A DNA stretch of 64,000 nucleotides from the NCBI RefSeq assembly GCF_012927745.1, contig NZ_JABBKX010000002.1:907999-971998 (forward strand). Direction: 5' to 3'. Shown here piece by piece: positions 17,090 to 22,334 of this stretch. Position 1 is the stretch's first letter. Every line of letters begins with the position of its first letter. The position numbers were made by a program, and so were the translations under genes. Origin of the DNA: Neoroseomonas marina (GTDB taxonomy: Bacteria; Pseudomonadota; Alphaproteobacteria; Acetobacterales; Acetobacteraceae). The notes under the pieces are model-generated. The model did not search any database. It was not told where the DNA came from and saw nothing but the letters and a program-made list of their open reading frames with translations.

Positions 17090-17644
17090 TCAGGCGTCCG
17101 CGGCCGGCGCGGCGGGCAGACATCGCCCCCCGGCCGCGATCGGCGACCATCCGGCGGCGGCCAGGTGGTCGCCGACGCCGCGGATGACCGCGGACGGCGT
17201 GGCGCCGCGCGCGCGCAGCGTGGCGCGCAGCGTCGCCACCTCCTCGAGATGCGCAGCCCATTCGGGGCCGAAGGCGTCCTCGAGCCAGCCGCGGATCGCG
17301 GCCGAGAGCGCCGGCGCACCGCCGGCCGTCGAGACAGTGAGCGTCAGCCCGCCGCGGCGCACGATGGCCGGCACATGCACGTCGCACAGATGCGGCACGT
17401 CCTCGACATTCACCGGGATGCGGAGCGCGCGGGCGCGCGCGGCGACGGACTCCGATTCCTCGTCCGTCAGCCCCGCGGCGAAGACCAGGCGTGCGGCGGC
17501 GATGGCGTCGTCCCCCGGCGCGCCCTCGACGACGGTAAGGTCCGTCAGCCCCGCCGCGCGCAGCACCGCGAGGCGCTTCGCGAGTGCGGCCCCGCGTCCG
17601 GCGAGCAGCACCGGTGTCGAAGGAAGGAAGACGAGCGGCAGCAT
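17090..17644 (-). CDS. Precorrin-2 dehydrogenase domain protein (siroheme synthase N-terminal, Met8-like)
   Basis: This 184-residue protein resembles the NAD-dependent N-terminal part of CysG: a GRGAALAKR nucleotide turn near residue 16, LVFAAGLTDEE, NVEDVPHLCDVHVPAIVRRG and TVSTAGGAPALSAAIR. It should oxidise precorrin-2 and perhaps insert iron to make siroheme, the cofactor of the sulfite reductase encoded just before it. Its ATG shares one base with the cysI stop (TGATG). The methyltransferase half is supplied by the separate cobA at 22888-23700. Confidence 0.85.
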   Translation of the reverse strand: MLPLVFLPSTPVLLAGRGAALAKRLAVLRAAGLTDLTVVEGAPGDDAIAAARLVFAAGLTDEESESVAARARALRIPVNVEDVPHLCDVHVPAIVRRGGLTLTVSTAGGAPALSAAIRGWLEDAFGPEWAAHLEEVATLRATLRARGATPSAVIRGVGDHLAAAGWSPIAAGGRCLPAAPAADA

Positions 17645-19320
17645 CAGGCGGCGACCTTCGCGTCGAGCAGCCCGCGCGCGGCGTCCTGGCCGATCCGCGC
17701 GCAGTAGTCGCCGAAGCCCTCGCCTGGCGCACGGTCCGCGGCCCAGGCGGCGAAGAGCGGTTCCAGCCGTGCCGCGATCGCCGCCTGCGGCACCTTGTCG
17801 GCGATCTGGAAGGACAGCCGCGTCCCTTCGAAATCCCCGCCCACGAACAGGGTGTAGAGGCCGGGCGCACGGCCGACCACGCCGATATCCCCGGCATAGG
17901 GACGGGCGCAGCCATTGGGGCAGCCGGTGATGCGCAGGCTGACGCGCTCGCCGGACAGGCCGTGGCGGGCGAGTGCCGCCTCGACATCGGCGAGGATCGG
18001 CGCGCGCACGCGCTCCCCTTCCGCGAGCGACTGCCCGCAGGTCGGCAGCGCGACGCAGGCGAGCGTCCAGCGCGCGAGCGGCGTGAGGTCCTCGGCGAAG
18101 GTGACGCCATGGGCGCGCAGCAGGCTCGTCACCGCCTGCCTGTCCTGCGGCGCGATGTCGGCGAGCAGCAGATCCTGCTGTGCGGTGACGATCGGGCGCG
18201 GGGCGAAGGCCTGCATGACGGCCCGCAGCGCGGCCCGCAGCGGCCCCGCGACACGCCCGGCCGGGATGGGAAGGCCCAGCCACAGCCGCCCGTCGTCCTG
18301 TTCGTGCCAGCCGAGCAGCTCGGGCACCGCGAGGCGCGGCAGGGCGGGCGCCGGCTGGAGCGGGCGCCCGAGATCGGCCGAGAGCCGATCGCGCACCCAA
18401 TCGACCCCGCGTTCGGCCACCACGTATTTCAGCCGCGCATGCTTGCGGTCGGACCGGTCGCCATGGTCGCGCGACAGCCGCACCACCGCCTTCGCGGTCT
18501 CGAGCACGTCGTCAGGTCCGATGACGCAGATCGCGTCGGCAAGGCGCGGATAGGTGGCGGGCTTGTTGTGCGTCATGCCCATGCCGCCGCCGACCGTGAC
18601 GATCCAGCCTGTTAGGCGGCCGCCCTCCGTGAGCGCGAGGAAGCCGAGGTCGTTCGCCAGCAGGTCCGGCGTGTTGTCGGACGGATGCGCGAGCGCGATC
18701 TTGAACTTCCGCGGCAGGTAGGTCGGGCCGTAGAGCGGCTCCTCCTCGACCACCGCCGTCTCCTCCTCGCCGAGGAAGATCTGGTGGTGGGCGCGGGAGC
18801 GCGGCAGCAGCTCCGACGAGAGCCGGAAGGCCTCCGCCTCGAGCCGCGCATGGATCGCATCCGCGCGTGGCGCGGCGGTGGTGATGACGTTGCGCACCAC
18901 GTCGCCGCAGGCGGCGAGCGTCGTCATCAGCGCATCGTGGATCGCGGCGATGGAGGGCTTCAGCGCCTGGCGGAGGATGCCGTGGAACTGCACGCCCTGC
19001 CGCGTGGTCAGCCGCAGCGTGCCGTCGGCGTGGGACTCCGCCAGCCCATCGAGGGCGAGCCACTGCGCCGCGGTGAGCCGCCCGGCGGGCGCGCGGACGC
19101 GGACCATGAAGGACCAGTCCTTGTCCTCGCCGCGCTGCTTGCGCTCGGTCGCGGTGTCGCGGTCGAACTGCTCGTAGGTGCCGTGGAACTTGAGCAGCGT
19201 GTACGCGCCCTCGGACAGGCCGCCGCGCGCCTCGGCGGCGGCGATCTCCTCGGCGATGGTGCCGCGCAGCGCGCGGCTGTCCGCCTTGATGGTCTCGGCT
19301 CCGCTCGGCTTCCCGGCCAT
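17644..19320 (-). CDS. cysI: Assimilatory sulfite reductase hemoprotein subunit CysI
   Basis: The 558-residue protein has the sulfite/nitrite reductase repeats and the four [4Fe-4S]/siroheme cysteines: CVALPTC near residues 421-427 and CPNGC near 463-467. Substrate-binding arginine regions TLRLTTRQGVQFHG and NVITTAAPRAD are present. It reduces sulfite to sulfide. No flavoprotein CysJ gene is near, so electrons may come from ferredoxin or a CysJ encoded elsewhere. It heads the long leftward operon, behind a promoter-like sequence at 19359-19387. Confidence 0.92.
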   Translation of the reverse strand: MAGKPSGAETIKADSRALRGTIAEEIAAAEARGGLSEGAYTLLKFHGTYEQFDRDTATERKQRGEDKDWSFMVRVRAPAGRLTAAQWLALDGLAESHADGTLRLTTRQGVQFHGILRQALKPSIAAIHDALMTTLAACGDVVRNVITTAAPRADAIHARLEAEAFRLSSELLPRSRAHHQIFLGEEETAVVEEEPLYGPTYLPRKFKIALAHPSDNTPDLLANDLGFLALTEGGRLTGWIVTVGGGMGMTHNKPATYPRLADAICVIGPDDVLETAKAVVRLSRDHGDRSDRKHARLKYVVAERGVDWVRDRLSADLGRPLQPAPALPRLAVPELLGWHEQDDGRLWLGLPIPAGRVAGPLRAALRAVMQAFAPRPIVTAQQDLLLADIAPQDRQAVTSLLRAHGVTFAEDLTPLARWTLACVALPTCGQSLAEGERVRAPILADVEAALARHGLSGERVSLRITGCPNGCARPYAGDIGVVGRAPGLYTLFVGGDFEGTRLSFQIADKVPQAAIAARLEPLFAAWAADRAPGEGFGDYCARIGQDAARGLLDAKVAA

Positions 19321-19645
19321 GTCCGTCGCAGGCTCCGCATCGCGATTGCAGTGCGGACGATATCCGCATCGAGATATACAATGTCAAATCGGCAATTAGC
19401 GGAATCTGGACCTCGAACGCCGGGGGTGCTCGTCCTCACCCTCCGATGAGGCACGCCAAGGGCACAAGGTTTCCAGGAATGATGCGGCCTTGATCGAAGA
19501 CTTCCGCGCGCGACCTGCCGAAGAGAAGGAGATTTTTTCTTTCTGAAAAACACATAATATGGTCGGGTTAATGTTGACGAAGACCGCCGTGTGAATGTGA
19601 AATGCGTCTGCCGATGAACGGGGCCCGCGCCCCGGGAGACCCAGG
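19321..19645. other. AT-rich divergent control region of the sulfur locus
   Basis: This stretch between cysI and the rightward micro-gene operon is unusually AT-rich at 19531-19580 for this genome. A TAATAT at 19555-19560 could be a -10 box for rightward transcription, giving a leader of about 80 bases before the small frame at 19646; the matching -35 is poor. The T-run at 19533-19538 has no hairpin before it. No gene of normal size is present. Confidence 0.4.
19359..19387 (-). promoter_or_regulatory. Sigma70-like promoter for the cysI operon
   Basis: On the minus strand TTGACA (19382-19387) is a perfect -35 box. After a 17-base spacer comes GATATC (19359-19364), an acceptable -10 box. Transcription would begin about 30 bases before the cysI ATG. 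It is seen in sequence only. Confidence 0.5.
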
Positions 19646-19741
19646 ATGACTTTCGTCATGCGTCAGGACATGCACCAGCGCCACGCCGCAGCCCGGCCGT
19701 GTCGCCGCTGCCCGCCGTGGCGAATGCGCCTGGGCGGCTGA
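19646..19741 (+). CDS. Putative 31-residue leader peptide with CRRC motif
   Basis: A 32-codon frame starts with ATG seven bases after a GGGAG ribosome-binding sequence. It encodes a basic peptide ending PCRRCPPWRMRLGG, with Cys codons 19 and 22. Its TGA stop is exactly the three-base loop of a 7-base-pair hairpin (GGGCGGC/GCCGCCC). It lies about 75 bases ahead of a micro-gene/TauD operon in a cysteine-biosynthesis locus. A cysteine-sensing leader that controls the operon by ribosome stalling is inferred. Mycobacteria have cysteine-codon leaders upstream of sulfur genes, so the principle is known. The frame could be chance. Confidence 0.45.
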   Translation: MTFVMRQDMHQRHAAARPCRRCPPWRMRLGG

Positions 19742-19810
19742 GCCGCCCCGGACGCCCTCACCCCTCTTCCCTGGAACGCATCTGCAACCGGCGCGTCGCG
19801 CCGGCGGAGG
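19732..19810 (+). promoter_or_regulatory. Candidate attenuator hairpins before the micro-gene/TauD operon
   Basis: Hairpin 1 is GGGCGGC (19732-19738), loop TGA, GCCGCCC (19742-19748). Hairpin 2 is CCGGCGC (19788-19794), loop GTC, GCGCCGG (19798-19804), and it abuts the ribosome-binding GGAGG (19806-19810) of the first micro-gene. CCGCC of hairpin 1 can pair instead with GGCGG (19803-19807), which reaches into that ribosome-binding site. Two mutually exclusive states are thus possible. There is no T-run, so control of translation rather than termination is the better guess. Confidence 0.4.
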
Positions 19811-19816
19811 ATCGAC

Positions 19817-20017
19817 ATGATCCTGTCACGACCCATCACCGAGAATGGCCACATGGTCGGCGTCGCCACGACCGGCGACAGCGGATGGCTCTTCACCGCG
19901 CTCGACCCGCGCGTGGAGGACCTGCACGGCGCGCAGTTCCGCACCCCGGCCGACGCCGAGCGCGTCGCCCTCCTCGTCCTCGCCCGCGGCCGCGGCGCCG
20001 CAGGGGGGCGCGCATGA
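19817..20017 (+). CDS. Small protein of 66 residues, unknown function
   Basis: The frame has a good ribosome-binding site (GGAGG, six bases before ATG) and overlaps the next ATG by four bases. The peptide begins MILSRPITENGHMVGVATTG and has LHGAQFRTPADAERVALLVLARG, a soluble-looking small domain with no membrane segment. I do not recognise the family. It opens a chain of four genes ending in a TauD-type dioxygenase within the sulfur locus, so a role in sulfur or sulfonate metabolism is inferred only from place. Confidence 0.6.
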   Translation: MILSRPITENGHMVGVATTGDSGWLFTALDPRVEDLHGAQFRTPADAERVALLVLARGRGAAGGRA

Positions 20018-20106
20018 TCACGCTGACGCTCCGCACCCTCGGCGCCGGCGCGGCCCTGCTCGCGCTCCTCGCCGCGACCGGCCTGCTGCAGCGGGGCGCG
20101 CCATGA
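20014..20106 (+). CDS. Predicted 30-residue single-pass membrane peptide
   Basis: ATG at 20014 overlaps the preceding stop (ATGA) and its own stop overlaps the next ATG (20103). The product has one hydrophobic helix, LRTLGAGAALLALLAATGLL, and a short polar tail. A GGGGGG run 3-8 bases before the ATG may serve for ribosome binding. It is too short for most gene finders. Coding status rests on the exact overlaps and composition. Its function is unknown. Confidence 0.45.
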   Translation: MITLTLRTLGAGAALLALLAATGLLQRGAP

Positions 20107-20261
20107 GCAGCCTGCTGTTCGTGCCGGTGCTCGAGACCGGCGCCATCGCCTGGCTCGCGGGGTTCCTCGCCGCGGTGGGCGGCGGGGCGCTGCACATCCT
20201 CATGCCGCCGCGTGACCCCGCGGTGGCCGAGGCGCTCCTTGCCGCCACGGTGCATCCGTGA
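20103..20261 (+). CDS. Predicted 52-residue membrane protein
   Basis: This frame overlaps the upstream stop by four bases and the downstream GTG start by four bases (GTGA). The product has a central hydrophobic stretch, IAWLAGFLAAVGGGALHIL, then a charged tail. A small inner-membrane protein is predicted. Together with the 30-residue neighbour it could form a small membrane complex; that is inference. No family is recognised. Confidence 0.5.
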   Translation: MSSLLFVPVLETGAIAWLAGFLAAVGGGALHILMPPRDPAVAEALLAATVHP

Positions 20262-21163
20262 GCGCCGCCCGCAAGCCGGCGGACTGGACGGTCCTCGCCG
20301 CCCTGCACCCCGCCTTCGGCGTCGAAGTGGTGGGCCCGCCGCTGGGATTCGGCACCCCGCACGCCGCCCTCGACGGGCTGCGCGACCTGGTGCGCGTGCA
20401 TGGCCTCGTCGTGCTGCGCGACCAGGCGCTGCCGCCCTCGGAGCAGGCGATGCTGACGCGCCGCCTCGGCCGGCCGGAGATCCACGCGCTCGCCCATGCG
20501 CGGCATGCGGAGCTTCCGGAGATCGTGGTCGAAGGCAATGCCGGCGCGGAGGACGGACTCGGCGATGCGGGCCTCGCCTGGCATGCCGACCTGACGTGGC
20601 GCGCGGCGCCATCGCGGCTGTCGCTGCTCAGTGCCGGGCACCTGCCCGCGGCGGGCGGGGAGATCCTCTTCGCGCACCAGGGCGCGGCCTATGAGCGGCT
20701 CGATCCCTGGCTGCGCTGGCGCATCGAATACCTCGACGCGGAGCACGACCACGACCGCCGCCGCGCGGGCGGCGCGCCGGGGTGGCGGCCGCGGCCGGCG
20801 CTGGCCGGTGCCGAGCGCGACGCCCATCCGGCCGTGGTGCACCCGGTGGTGCGGCTCGATCCCGCGACGGGGCAGCGGAGCCTCTTCGTGAACGAGGGCA
20901 CGACGACGCGCCTGCTCGGCGCCCCCGAGGACGAAGCGACGCGGCTGCTGGCCCGGCTGCTGGCCGCGGCGACCGATCCCGCCGTCGTGCTCCGCCATCG
21001 CTGGCGTCCCGGCGACCTGCTGCTGTGGGACAATGCGCTGCTGCTGCATCGCGTGGAGGCGACGGCACCGGGCGAGGTGATCCGGCTCCATCGGAGCGCG
21101 GTCAGCGGCGAGCGGCCCGTCGGGCCGATCTCGGTCGCGCAGCCCTGGGTGGTTGCCGGCTAG
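20258..21163 (+). CDS. TauD/TfdA-family 2-oxoglutarate-dependent dioxygenase
   Basis: The 301-residue protein has the iron-binding HxD pair in LAWHADLTW (His108, Asp110) and a distal His near 264 in LLLWDNALLLHRVE. An Arg for 2-oxoglutarate follows in VIRLHRSAV. TauD relatives release sulfite from taurine or other sulfonates, and its setting next to sulfite reductase and sulfate transport fits that. The substrate could also be an alkyl sulfate or an unrelated compound. Translation starts at a GTG overlapping the previous stop. A strong terminator follows at 21274. Confidence 0.82.
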   Translation: MSAARKPADWTVLAALHPAFGVEVVGPPLGFGTPHAALDGLRDLVRVHGLVVLRDQALPPSEQAMLTRRLGRPEIHALAHARHAELPEIVVEGNAGAEDGLGDAGLAWHADLTWRAAPSRLSLLSAGHLPAAGGEILFAHQGAAYERLDPWLRWRIEYLDAEHDHDRRRAGGAPGWRPRPALAGAERDAHPAVVHPVVRLDPATGQRSLFVNEGTTTRLLGAPEDEATRLLARLLAAATDPAVVLRHRWRPGDLLLWDNALLLHRVEATAPGEVIRLHRSAVSGERPVGPISVAQPWVVAG

Positions 21164-21273
21164 GAACCGCCCGGCGCCACCGCACGACCTCCGCCCGCCG
21201 TCGGCGGAGCGGCCTGCCCGAAGGCGGGCCGGCACCAGACGGCCATGTGACTGGACGTTTCCTCCCGCAACTT

Positions 21274-21307
21274 CGGCCGGGGCCCCATGTGGTCCCGGCC
21301 GTTTTTT
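21274..21307 (+). terminator. Rho-independent terminator after the TauD operon
   Basis: CGGCCGGG (21274-21281) and CCCGGCCG (21294-21301) form a perfect 8-base-pair stem, extendable inward, followed by TTTTTT at 21302-21307. It ends the rightward micro-gene/TauD transcript just before the convergent cysK. Confidence 0.85.
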
Positions 21308-21308
21308 G

Positions 21309-22334
21309 TCAGAGCCCGGCGAAGAGTCGCGTCGAGAGGTAGCGTTCGGCGAAGGACGGCGCGATCGCGACCACCAGCCGCCCGGCCATGGCGGGTTCGC
21401 GCGCCACGGTGATGGCCGCGGCGAGCGCGGCGCCGGAGGAAATGCCGATCGGCAGCCCTTCTTCCCGCGCGCAGCGACGCGCCGCGTCGAAGGCCTCTCG
21501 TTCCGGCACGCGCAGCACGCCGTCGAGGGCGGCGAGGTCCAGCACCGCCGGCTTGAACCCCGCGCCGATGCCCTGGATGTCGTGCGGCCCGGGATCGTCG
21601 CCCGACAGAACCGCGCTTTCCGCCGGTTCCACCCCCAACACGCGCAGCCCCTTCCGGCGCGGCTTCAGCGCGCGGGCGATGCCGGTCAGCGTGCCGCCGG
21701 TGCCGATGCCGCCGACGATGGCGTCGACCTCGCCGCCGGTGTCGGTCCAGATCTCCTCGGCGGTGGTGGCCGCGTGGATGTCGGGGTTGGCCGGATTGTC
21801 GAACTGGCGCGGCATCCAGGCGCCTGGGGTGGCGGCGAGGATCGCCTCGGCCCGCGCGATCGCGCCGGCCATGCCGCGCTTCGCGGGCGTGAGTTCCAGT
21901 TCGGCGCCCATCAGGCGCATCATCCGCCGTCGCTCGATGCTCGCACCGTCGGGCATCACCACGATCAGCCGGTAGCCCTTGGCGGCCGCGACGAAGGCGA
22001 GCGCGATGCCGGTATTGCCCGAGGTCGGTTCCACCAGCACGGAGCGGCCCGGGGCGATCTGCCCCGCGCGCTCTGCCGCCTCGACCATGGCGAGGCCGAT
22101 CCGGTCCTTCACCGAGCCGAGCGGATTGAAGAACTCGAGCTTGAGCGCGATCCGCGCCGCGAGCCCCTCCGCCGCCGCGATGCGCGGCAGCAGGACGAGC
22201 GGCGTGCCGCCCACCGTCTCGAGCACGCTGCCGAAGATGCGGCCGCGGGCGGAGGCGAGGGTGGCGGGGGGTTCCGCCTTCCGTGTCTTGGCGCGGCGGC
22301 GCGGGGCGTTTCCATCGGGCATGGCGGAAGCCAT
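21309..22334 (-). CDS. cysK: Cysteine synthase (O-acetylserine sulfhydrylase)
   Basis: The 341-residue PLP enzyme has Lys76 in NPLGSVKDRIG, the substrate loop PTSGNTGIAL near 103-112 and the phosphate loop GGIGTGGTLTG near 210. It makes cysteine from O-acetylserine and sulfide. It carries an extra N-terminal stretch of about 30 mostly basic residues ahead of the usual family start. ATG 22322 is an alternative start. It is divergent from an Rrf2-type regulator gene 101 bases away. Confidence 0.9.
   Translation of the reverse strand: MASAMPDGNAPRRRAKTRKAEPPATLASARGRIFGSVLETVGGTPLVLLPRIAAAEGLAARIALKLEFFNPLGSVKDRIGLAMVEAAERAGQIAPGRSVLVEPTSGNTGIALAFVAAAKGYRLIVVMPDGASIERRRMMRLMGAELELTPAKRGMAGAIARAEAILAATPGAWMPRQFDNPANPDIHAATTAEEIWTDTGGEVDAIVGGIGTGGTLTGIARALKPRRKGLRVLGVEPAESAVLSGDDPGPHDIQGIGAGFKPAVLDLAALDGVLRVPEREAFDAARRCAREEGLPIGISSGAALAAAITVAREPAMAGRLVVAIAPSFAERYLSTRLFAGL

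Follow-up and report, generated by a model that had tools for sequence, protein, structure and literature searches.

The window, by which we mean the whole stretch of 64,000 nucleotides analysed here, contains a short open reading frame between a divergent sulfite reductase gene and the gene of a 66-residue protein, P0002. The features of this region, in coordinates of the window, are as follows.

17644-19320, minus strand: gene of the sulfite reductase hemoprotein CysI, divergent (NCBIfam NF010029, 640 bits against a cut-off of 457)
19574-19579 and 19598-19603, plus strand: candidate promoter, TTGACG, 18 nt and TGAAAT, read from the sequence
19619-19634, plus strand: hairpin 0, CGGGGC-CCGC-GCCCCG in the predicted fold, flush with the leader Shine-Dalgarno (SD) sequence
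19634-19638, plus strand: leader SD sequence GGGAG, read from the sequence
19646-19741, plus strand: leader frame read from the sequence, 31 codons plus TGA (19739-19741), encoding MTFVMRQDMHQRHAAARPCRRCPPWRMRLGG
19700-19711, plus strand: Cys-Arg-Arg-Cys in the translated leader frame, TGT CGC CGC TGC
19732-19738 and 19742-19748, plus strand: stop-codon hairpin (hairpin 1), GGGCGGC/GCCGCCC, 7 bp with TGA as its loop
19749-19787, plus strand: linker between hairpins 1 and 2, C-rich and G-poor
19788-19794 and 19798-19804, plus strand: hairpin 2, CCGGCGC and GCGCCGG around GTC, 7 bp, flush with the SD sequence of the 66-residue protein gene
19805-19810, plus strand: SD sequence CGGAGG of the 66-residue protein gene, read from the sequence
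19817-20017, plus strand: P0002 gene, directly downstream of the leader
20103-20261, plus strand: putative membrane peptide of 52 residues (membrane nature judged by eye), between P0002 and TauD
20258-21163, plus strand: TauD/TfdA-family dioxygenase gene (Pfam PF02668)
21309-22334, minus strand: cysteine synthase gene CysK (TIGR01139, 395.9 bits against a cut-off of 351)

TauD is followed by CysK, the gene of an Rrf2 regulator and that of a uroporphyrinogen methyltransferase. The initial annotation, which proposed a cysteine-sensing leader, had pointed to the frame with its ribosome-binding site (RBS), the Cys-Arg-Arg-Cys stretch, the 7-bp hairpin looping out TGA and a second hairpin abutting the next RBS; all of these are present as listed above, the second hairpin directly adjoining CGGAGG. 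Hairpins 1 and 2 co-occur in the RNAfold prediction, and no U-run (T-run in the DNA) was seen by eye after hairpin 2 in the window. Neither of the two Cys codons adjoins the stop; 12 codons remain after the first and 9 after the second. The Rfam search of the window returned no match at gathering, and the leader matched no NCBIfam family.

The window alone is insufficient for a leader claim, because both the fold and the Cys count are unremarkable: the folding energy of 19620-19830 is ordinary for its composition (MFE z = -1.54, with 14 of 200 shuffles as good), and a 31-codon frame would contain two or more Cys codons by chance with p = 0.235. Frames of 20-60 codons that start with ATG and have an SD-like site number 21 in the 64-kb window. 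What takes the leader beyond chance is conservation across relatives, seen in the frame, in the position of the Cys codons and in the stop hairpin.

The downstream protein P0002 matches nothing in Pfam or NCBIfam. Its homologues occur in 120 of 397 Acetobacteraceae genomes (profile A2, E<=0.001) and in 13 of 99 sampled genomes (E<=0.01), and its strong form in six of 35 same-genus genomes, the window's own included. The predicted structure is a confident small alpha/beta model (pLDDT 89.9), with nothing at E<=0.001 and no informative match in the PDB. P0002 and its homologues share the pattern SRPI..GRFVGVAV..W.F.A.DP..EDL.G..F and are repeatedly the first gene after a Cys leader. A plasmid DNA search gave a single short match, inside the P0002 gene, in Pseudoroseomonas cervicalis. 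The 52-residue peptide is 58-63% identical in the loci L049, L050, L051 and L052 and was not found in L048. TauD adjoins P0002 in the same-genus loci L048, L050 and L052, and, by a match over 52 residues, in L049; it was not found in the 11 kb of L051, which hold only the 66- and 52-residue genes. The order CysI-leader-P0002-TauD-CysK is retained in L048, L050 and L052 and partly in L049. Between the TauD and CysK genes, the suhB/mmgR small RNA model (RF00519) has a sub-threshold match on the plus strand (21234-21315, equal to positions 2918-2999 of L031, the window's own locus; 29.8 bits, gathering 41), and the same model reaches 35.9 bits in the same-genus locus L033 (626-705, minus strand).

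We then compared the leader across relatives. A 31-codon leader precedes the P0002 homologue in all six same-genus genomes with the strong form, the window's own included, and the leader also lies 5' of homologues in five other genera. The same-genus leaders carry CRRC in five of six cases and CRRG in L035, followed by RM and a variable end, and C19, R20 and R21 are invariant in an alignment of ten leaders (A1). By eye, TTGAC is found 5' of all six same-genus leaders and of some others. No purifying selection is visible on the leader body, with 4-6 synonymous versus 11-12 non-synonymous codon changes in the pairs of L031, L032 and L033, and a codon sensor therefore fits better than a functional peptide. 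Searching 99 genomes with the leader peptide (E<0.001) recovered only three same-genus leaders, one of them the window's own, and one chance-looking match.

For a wider comparison within Acetobacteraceae, we assembled 64 distinct starts, found by an aptamer-like start sequence plus, among them, eight listed by hand. Those with the small gene or ssuA downstream were kept (42 leaders), and 22 of sphingomonad type and others were dropped. Thirty-four of the 42 had been picked by start sequence and downstream gene with the 3' end ignored; since the start sequence served to find them, this share is no gauge of aptamer frequency. A Cys codon lies within the last five codons in 33 of these 34, the exception being L082, where the frame runs on past CRR. 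Among the hand-listed leaders the figure is only three of eight, because Cys lies further upstream in the window's group, giving 36 of 42 overall; within the last 13 codons it is 41 of 42. The other two frames of the same leaders, used as a control, gave 10 of 84 and 45 of 84, respectively. These counts are not independent events, since many leaders stem from related species.

Several further features concern the Cys codons themselves. Among 55 distinct aptamer-start sequences, 21 carry TGTCGNCGYTGA, and in 21 of 21 it is in frame with the AUG over eight distinct lengths. The residues after Cys differ (RR, R, WR, PR, RG, WG, RP, QR or none) and Cys is constant, while leader length ranges over 13-51 residues and the body is free to vary. 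The last six codons of the Acetobacteraceae leaders contain TGT 43 times and TGC five times, against a baseline of zero TGT and 12 TGC in nine ordinary coding sequences, taken from the window only (70% G+C). The frame and Cys codons, whose absence from relatives the initial annotation had regarded as speaking against a leader, are thus retained, both in the wider set and in the six same-genus leaders. The gap between leader and gene is 61-106 nt in 40 of 42 leaders. In nine loci of one genus, a short frame with Cys near its end lies 186-208 nt before the gene, and only one of these (L037) is among the 42. In Roseicella (L150) the same leader stands 73 nt before ssuA-ssuD-ssuC, each gene scoring above a model's cut-off. 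Several points weigh against the Cys-leader reading: the strong P0002 form in only six of 35 same-genus genomes, Cys codons that in the window fall short of the stop, a leader body under no visible purifying selection, and many more distant small-gene loci in which a non-systematic look showed no leader. To these come the poor stop hairpins of several loci, the lack of a conserved switch pairing and the leader of L191, all described below.

RNA structure was assessed over 40 of the loci, L037 and L082 being omitted. The arms of the stop hairpin, taken at fixed positions, pair better with their own partner than with arms drawn from elsewhere in the set (z -4.75, 0 of 300 shuffles). A two-sided change in this stem separates the window (GGCGGC/GCCGCC) from L032 (GGTGGC/GCCACC). 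The hairpin is not universal: fixed-position scores range from 5 to 25 and are poor in L146, L169 and L172, among others. Folding z is below -1 in 18 of 40 stop regions and in 18 of 40 SD regions. Hairpin 2 looks conserved across the 40 loci, with a mean arm energy of -16.3 kcal/mol versus -6.2 to -10.9 kcal/mol in the five regions taken as controls; its cross-locus z of -8.8 is inflated because the arms were taken from each locus's own fold, and the same arm-picking bias gives -4.0 to -6.6 in control regions and -4.2 to -7.6 in shuffled regions. In the hairpin 0 region the own partner is favoured over other loci's arms by 4.03 kcal/mol (controls 1.6 to 2.8; 40 loci). Since hairpin 0 is likewise flush with an SD sequence, that of the leader, a hairpin in this place may simply aid initiation. 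In many relatives a SAM-II-like aptamer begins next to the hairpin 0 position.

As for this aptamer-like element, in many Acetobacteraceae the leader AUG lies inside GGGATTTGACCCATGCAGCTTGCACCGCGTCACCAAACGCTAAAGCGCC or a close variant of it. An exact-pattern search returned 53 stretches in named genomes, by record title 31 from Acetobacteraceae, 21 from Sphingomonadales and one from a metagenome-assembled genome labelled Actinobacteria (L173); the latter carries a sphingomonad-type element and is possibly mis-binned. A model of the element, R1, matches 70 of 385 alphaproteobacterial genomes, where the genes that come after it include metX and those of OAH sulfhydrylase-type enzymes and siroheme synthase. 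The Rfam SAM_alpha and SAM-II models match the element at 20.6-24.4 bits in four of 19 loci and at 21.8 bits in one of 11, all below gathering, with no match in eight sphingomonad loci at E<=3 and none in 20 loci at gathering. In 16 further loci the element was matched in ten, with best scores of 24.5-36.5 bits, again all below gathering; the top scores are 36.5 for RF01726 (cut-off 44) and 35.4 for RF00521 (cut-off 36). In three of these 16 loci, a canonical SAM_alpha that scores above gathering (42.8, 39.1 and 38.6 bits) stands next to the element. In L216 (295-374), L223 (1078-1154) and L241 (1005-1082), the canonical SAM_alpha lies upstream of R1, giving two SAM-II-type aptamers per leader.

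RNAalifold pairs GC.GCUU with AAGC.GC in the element, with zero two-sided changes. A CGCGG/CCGCG stem recognised by eye shows such changes in L236 and L240 (CCCGG/CCGGG) and in L252 (TGCGG/CCGCA). Together the two pairings would form a possible pseudoknot like that of SAM-II, and the relatives' element is presumed to bind SAM. In the sphingomonad loci looked at (among L128-L176), an R1-like element precedes TonB receptors, a sulfatase, MFS, TauD or EpsC, as with the serine acetyltransferase EpsC in L142 (Novosphingobium). By eye, a hairpin ACGATGC/GCATCGT follows the element there, repeated in many at the next start site, where short, often Met-rich frames are found.

Across the class, 68 of the 70 R1 loci could be placed, and 20 of them have a match to the small-protein profile within 900 nt. 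An SD-preceded, Cys-ended frame follows R1 in 16 of the 20 loci with the small gene versus 10 of the 48 without it (Fisher p=1.4e-5), with ends such as MPMCCR, MRTCCCRT, MRCC and ARMCRR. Two more loci, L196 and L248, have Cys-rich leaders by eye, whereas the leader of L191, which does have the small gene, lacks Cys. Two of the ten loci without the small gene, L226 and L222, have their Cys-ended leader before metN-metI-metQ (L226/L257) and before a MetN/MetQ-like operon, respectively; in the latter, MetI and MetQ-type proteins score above cut-off and MetN below. In L243/L254 and L242/L255, the six-codon leaders MTCCCP and MTTCCP follow R1, and the downstream genes are not clearly sulfur-related. 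The leader family is widespread beyond the window's genus, and in other alphaproteobacteria the leader follows a SAM-II-like aptamer.

The window's genus departs from this pattern. R1 has no match at E<=0.001 in 23 same-genus genomes sampled, the window's own among them, where the best match (24.2 bits, E 0.009) is unconvincing, like the others. Switching the filters off yields 37 matches across nine loci (E<=10), of which the strongest, 18.0 bits at L031 861-896, is away from any leader. At the leader start itself, L036 retains a relic of 16.3 bits, L035 (9.5), L038 (8.6), L034 (7.9) and L033 (7.1) overlap it at noise level, and neither the window's locus nor L032 has any match, filters off. 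On the simplest reading, the aptamer would have been lost in the window's genus and the Cys leader kept; the alternative, that other lineages gained the aptamer, is the less simple one.

Together, the comparison shows a conserved frame, Cys codons near the stop, a bias to TGT, support for the stop hairpin and a sulfur-gene context. We consider it probable (about 0.7) that the window element is a cysteine-sensing leader peptide controlling the 66-residue protein gene, the TauD gene and their neighbours. In our model, whose translation, stalling, direction of control and output step we infer, a promoter some 40-70 nt upstream would yield an mRNA whose short frame is translated from its own SD sequence. 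When Cys-tRNA is scarce, ribosomes would slow at the Cys codons near the leader end. In most relatives the stalled ribosome would keep the stop-region hairpin open, and completion of the leader would let it close. The state of this hairpin would then change expression of the 66-residue protein gene, the TauD gene and their neighbours. The role of these operons suggests that cysteine shortage induces them, so that sulfonate and sulfur acquisition would be raised. RBS access, Rho and RNA decay are candidate outputs; the comparison does not choose among them, because it supports the stop hairpin and gives no support to the alternative pairing that had been proposed.

That pairing belongs to a translational attenuator, in which a completed leader frees the 3' arm of hairpin 1 to bind GGCGG beside the RBS and a Cys stall prevents this. 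In the window, GGCGG at 19803-19807 can indeed pair with GCCGCC of the 3' arm, and the duplex of this arm with the SD region (-23.6 kcal/mol) is the strongest among six of the loci. Over 40 loci, however, the 3' arm pairs no more strongly with the RBS side of its own locus than with that of another (z 0.50; 204 of 300 shuffles did as well), and all five alternative pairings examined between the regions of hairpins 1 and 2 gave z -0.14 to 0.50 against the cross-locus control, so that none of these switch pairings is conserved. Nor can persistence of hairpin 1 while the ribosome stalls be a general rule, because the same-genus leaders, six in number, have 3-9 codons between the last Cys codon and the stop, versus 0-2 in 33 of the 34 start-sequence-chosen ones, and stalls in most other leaders would cover the 5' arm. 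What stands of the initial annotation is a translated-looking frame with conserved Cys codons before sulfur genes; its RBS switch appears quite improbable. The output step might instead be Rho, as in tnaC of E. coli, where a ribosome held at the leader end prevents Rho loading: a finished leader would expose the C-rich linker, and a ribosome held at the leader end would block loading. In all 40 loci C exceeds G in the inner linker (7-52 nt; mean C 0.52, G 0.15), and no intrinsic terminator was seen by eye in the window. However, the gap between leader and gene is short, C likewise exceeds G in the downstream gene of 38 of the 42, and the skew is weak in the class beyond Acetobacteraceae (whole gap C>G in 13 of 16; C 0.33, G 0.27). 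Since the downstream gene shares the bias and the class-wide skew is weak, we regard Rho-dependent attenuation as possible but unlikely.

Other explanations dispense with cysteine or with translation. The Cys/Arg-rich end could belong to an arrest peptide sensing another signal, such as a metal or the redox state, or to a peptide with its own function. In favour of this, Arg flanks Cys in many leaders (RMRCRR, CRRC), Cys motifs are used by copper-responsive upstream ORFs (uORFs), and a copper-responsive uORF has been described (PMC9426467). The free variation of leader body and length, with Cys near the stop as the constant and different residues after it, and the genomic context of sulfur acquisition make an arrest peptide very improbable. 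It is likewise highly improbable that only an RNA structure is conserved and the frame incidental. The relatives' N-terminal MQLAPRHQxLKR is indeed the aptamer's own sequence, and in many aptamers these residues are encoded with no AUG present; yet the frame is kept over eight lengths in 21 of 21 leaders, terminal Cys codons recur in 33 of 34, and other families have Cys-ended leaders too, with different starts and SD sites.

Returning to the cysteine-sensing leader, a sulfur-starvation gate is its natural reading, because organosulfur genes lie downstream and a likely SAM sensor lies at the leader start of relatives. It is tempting to speculate that the two form a two-input gate before organosulfur-acquisition operons across Alphaproteobacteria, in which SAM, through a SAM-II-like aptamer holding the start codon, controls initiation of the leader, and Cys-tRNA controls its completion at the terminal Cys codons; in the window's genus the riboswitch would have decayed and the codon sensor alone remained. 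We put this forward tentatively, at somewhat less than even odds. To our knowledge, cysteine sensing for sulfur scavenging in alphaproteobacteria is poorly understood. A conserved Cys-codon sensor, often joined to an uncatalogued SAM-II-like element, would open it to reporter tests. The loci also form a natural gradation, from leaders joined to a riboswitch to leaders without one, and they make it likely that the conserved small protein P0002 takes part in the response to sulfur starvation.

Cysteine-responsive leaders have precedents. In mycobacteria, polycysteine leaderless sORFs are reported to act as a cysteine-responsive attenuator of operons (Canestrari et al. 2020, as cited in PMC9094748 and PMC13236596). 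The window leader resembles them as a short frame with Cys codons; the mycobacterial sORFs are leaderless, whereas it has an SD sequence and a stop-codon hairpin, joined in relatives by a SAM-II-like aptamer. Closer in phylogeny is uORFC-8-2 before cysS in Rhodobacterales, for which ribosome stalling was proposed (PMC8632094). Both are alphaproteobacterial uORFs with Cys codons and hairpins, and the statement in the initial annotation that none was described for this group accordingly needs a limit, as uORFC-8-2, with its tandem Cys codons, comes from the same class. As described there, uORFC-8-2 precedes cysS only, has two stems and a U-run terminator, and usually has Cys at codons 14-15. Unlike it, the window leader has no U-run terminator and is followed by P0002 and then TauD, not cysS; its family stands before operons for sulfur acquisition.

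The relatives' element shares with SAM-II and SAM_alpha (RF00521, RF01726; PMC1273637, PMC4239095) the AUUUGA, CUUGC and GCUAAAG blocks, the possible pseudoknot and the met-gene contexts. It differs in scoring below gathering and, in Acetobacteraceae, in holding the leader AUG; the window has no such aptamer. SAM_alpha is stated to occur only in Rhizobiales and Rhodobacterales (PMC4239095). A translated uORF inside an aptamer is known from the metE B12 riboswitch of M. tuberculosis (PMC11260477), which belongs to another phylum, binds another ligand and, in the available text, is reported without amino-acid sensing codons. Like the S. meliloti metA SAM-II riboswitch with its AUG1 and AUG2 (PMC9373788), the present element would combine an upstream start site with control at a distance; there AUG1 is unused in context, and the available text makes no mention of cysteine. 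The open-licence PMC literature, as far as its texts were available and including PMC8632094, PMC11109978 and PMC6429828, gave no description of the present leader family. Thus, cysteine leaders as such were already known from mycobacteria and from cysS in Rhodobacterales, and within the literature searched it is the present family and its link to a riboswitch that look new.
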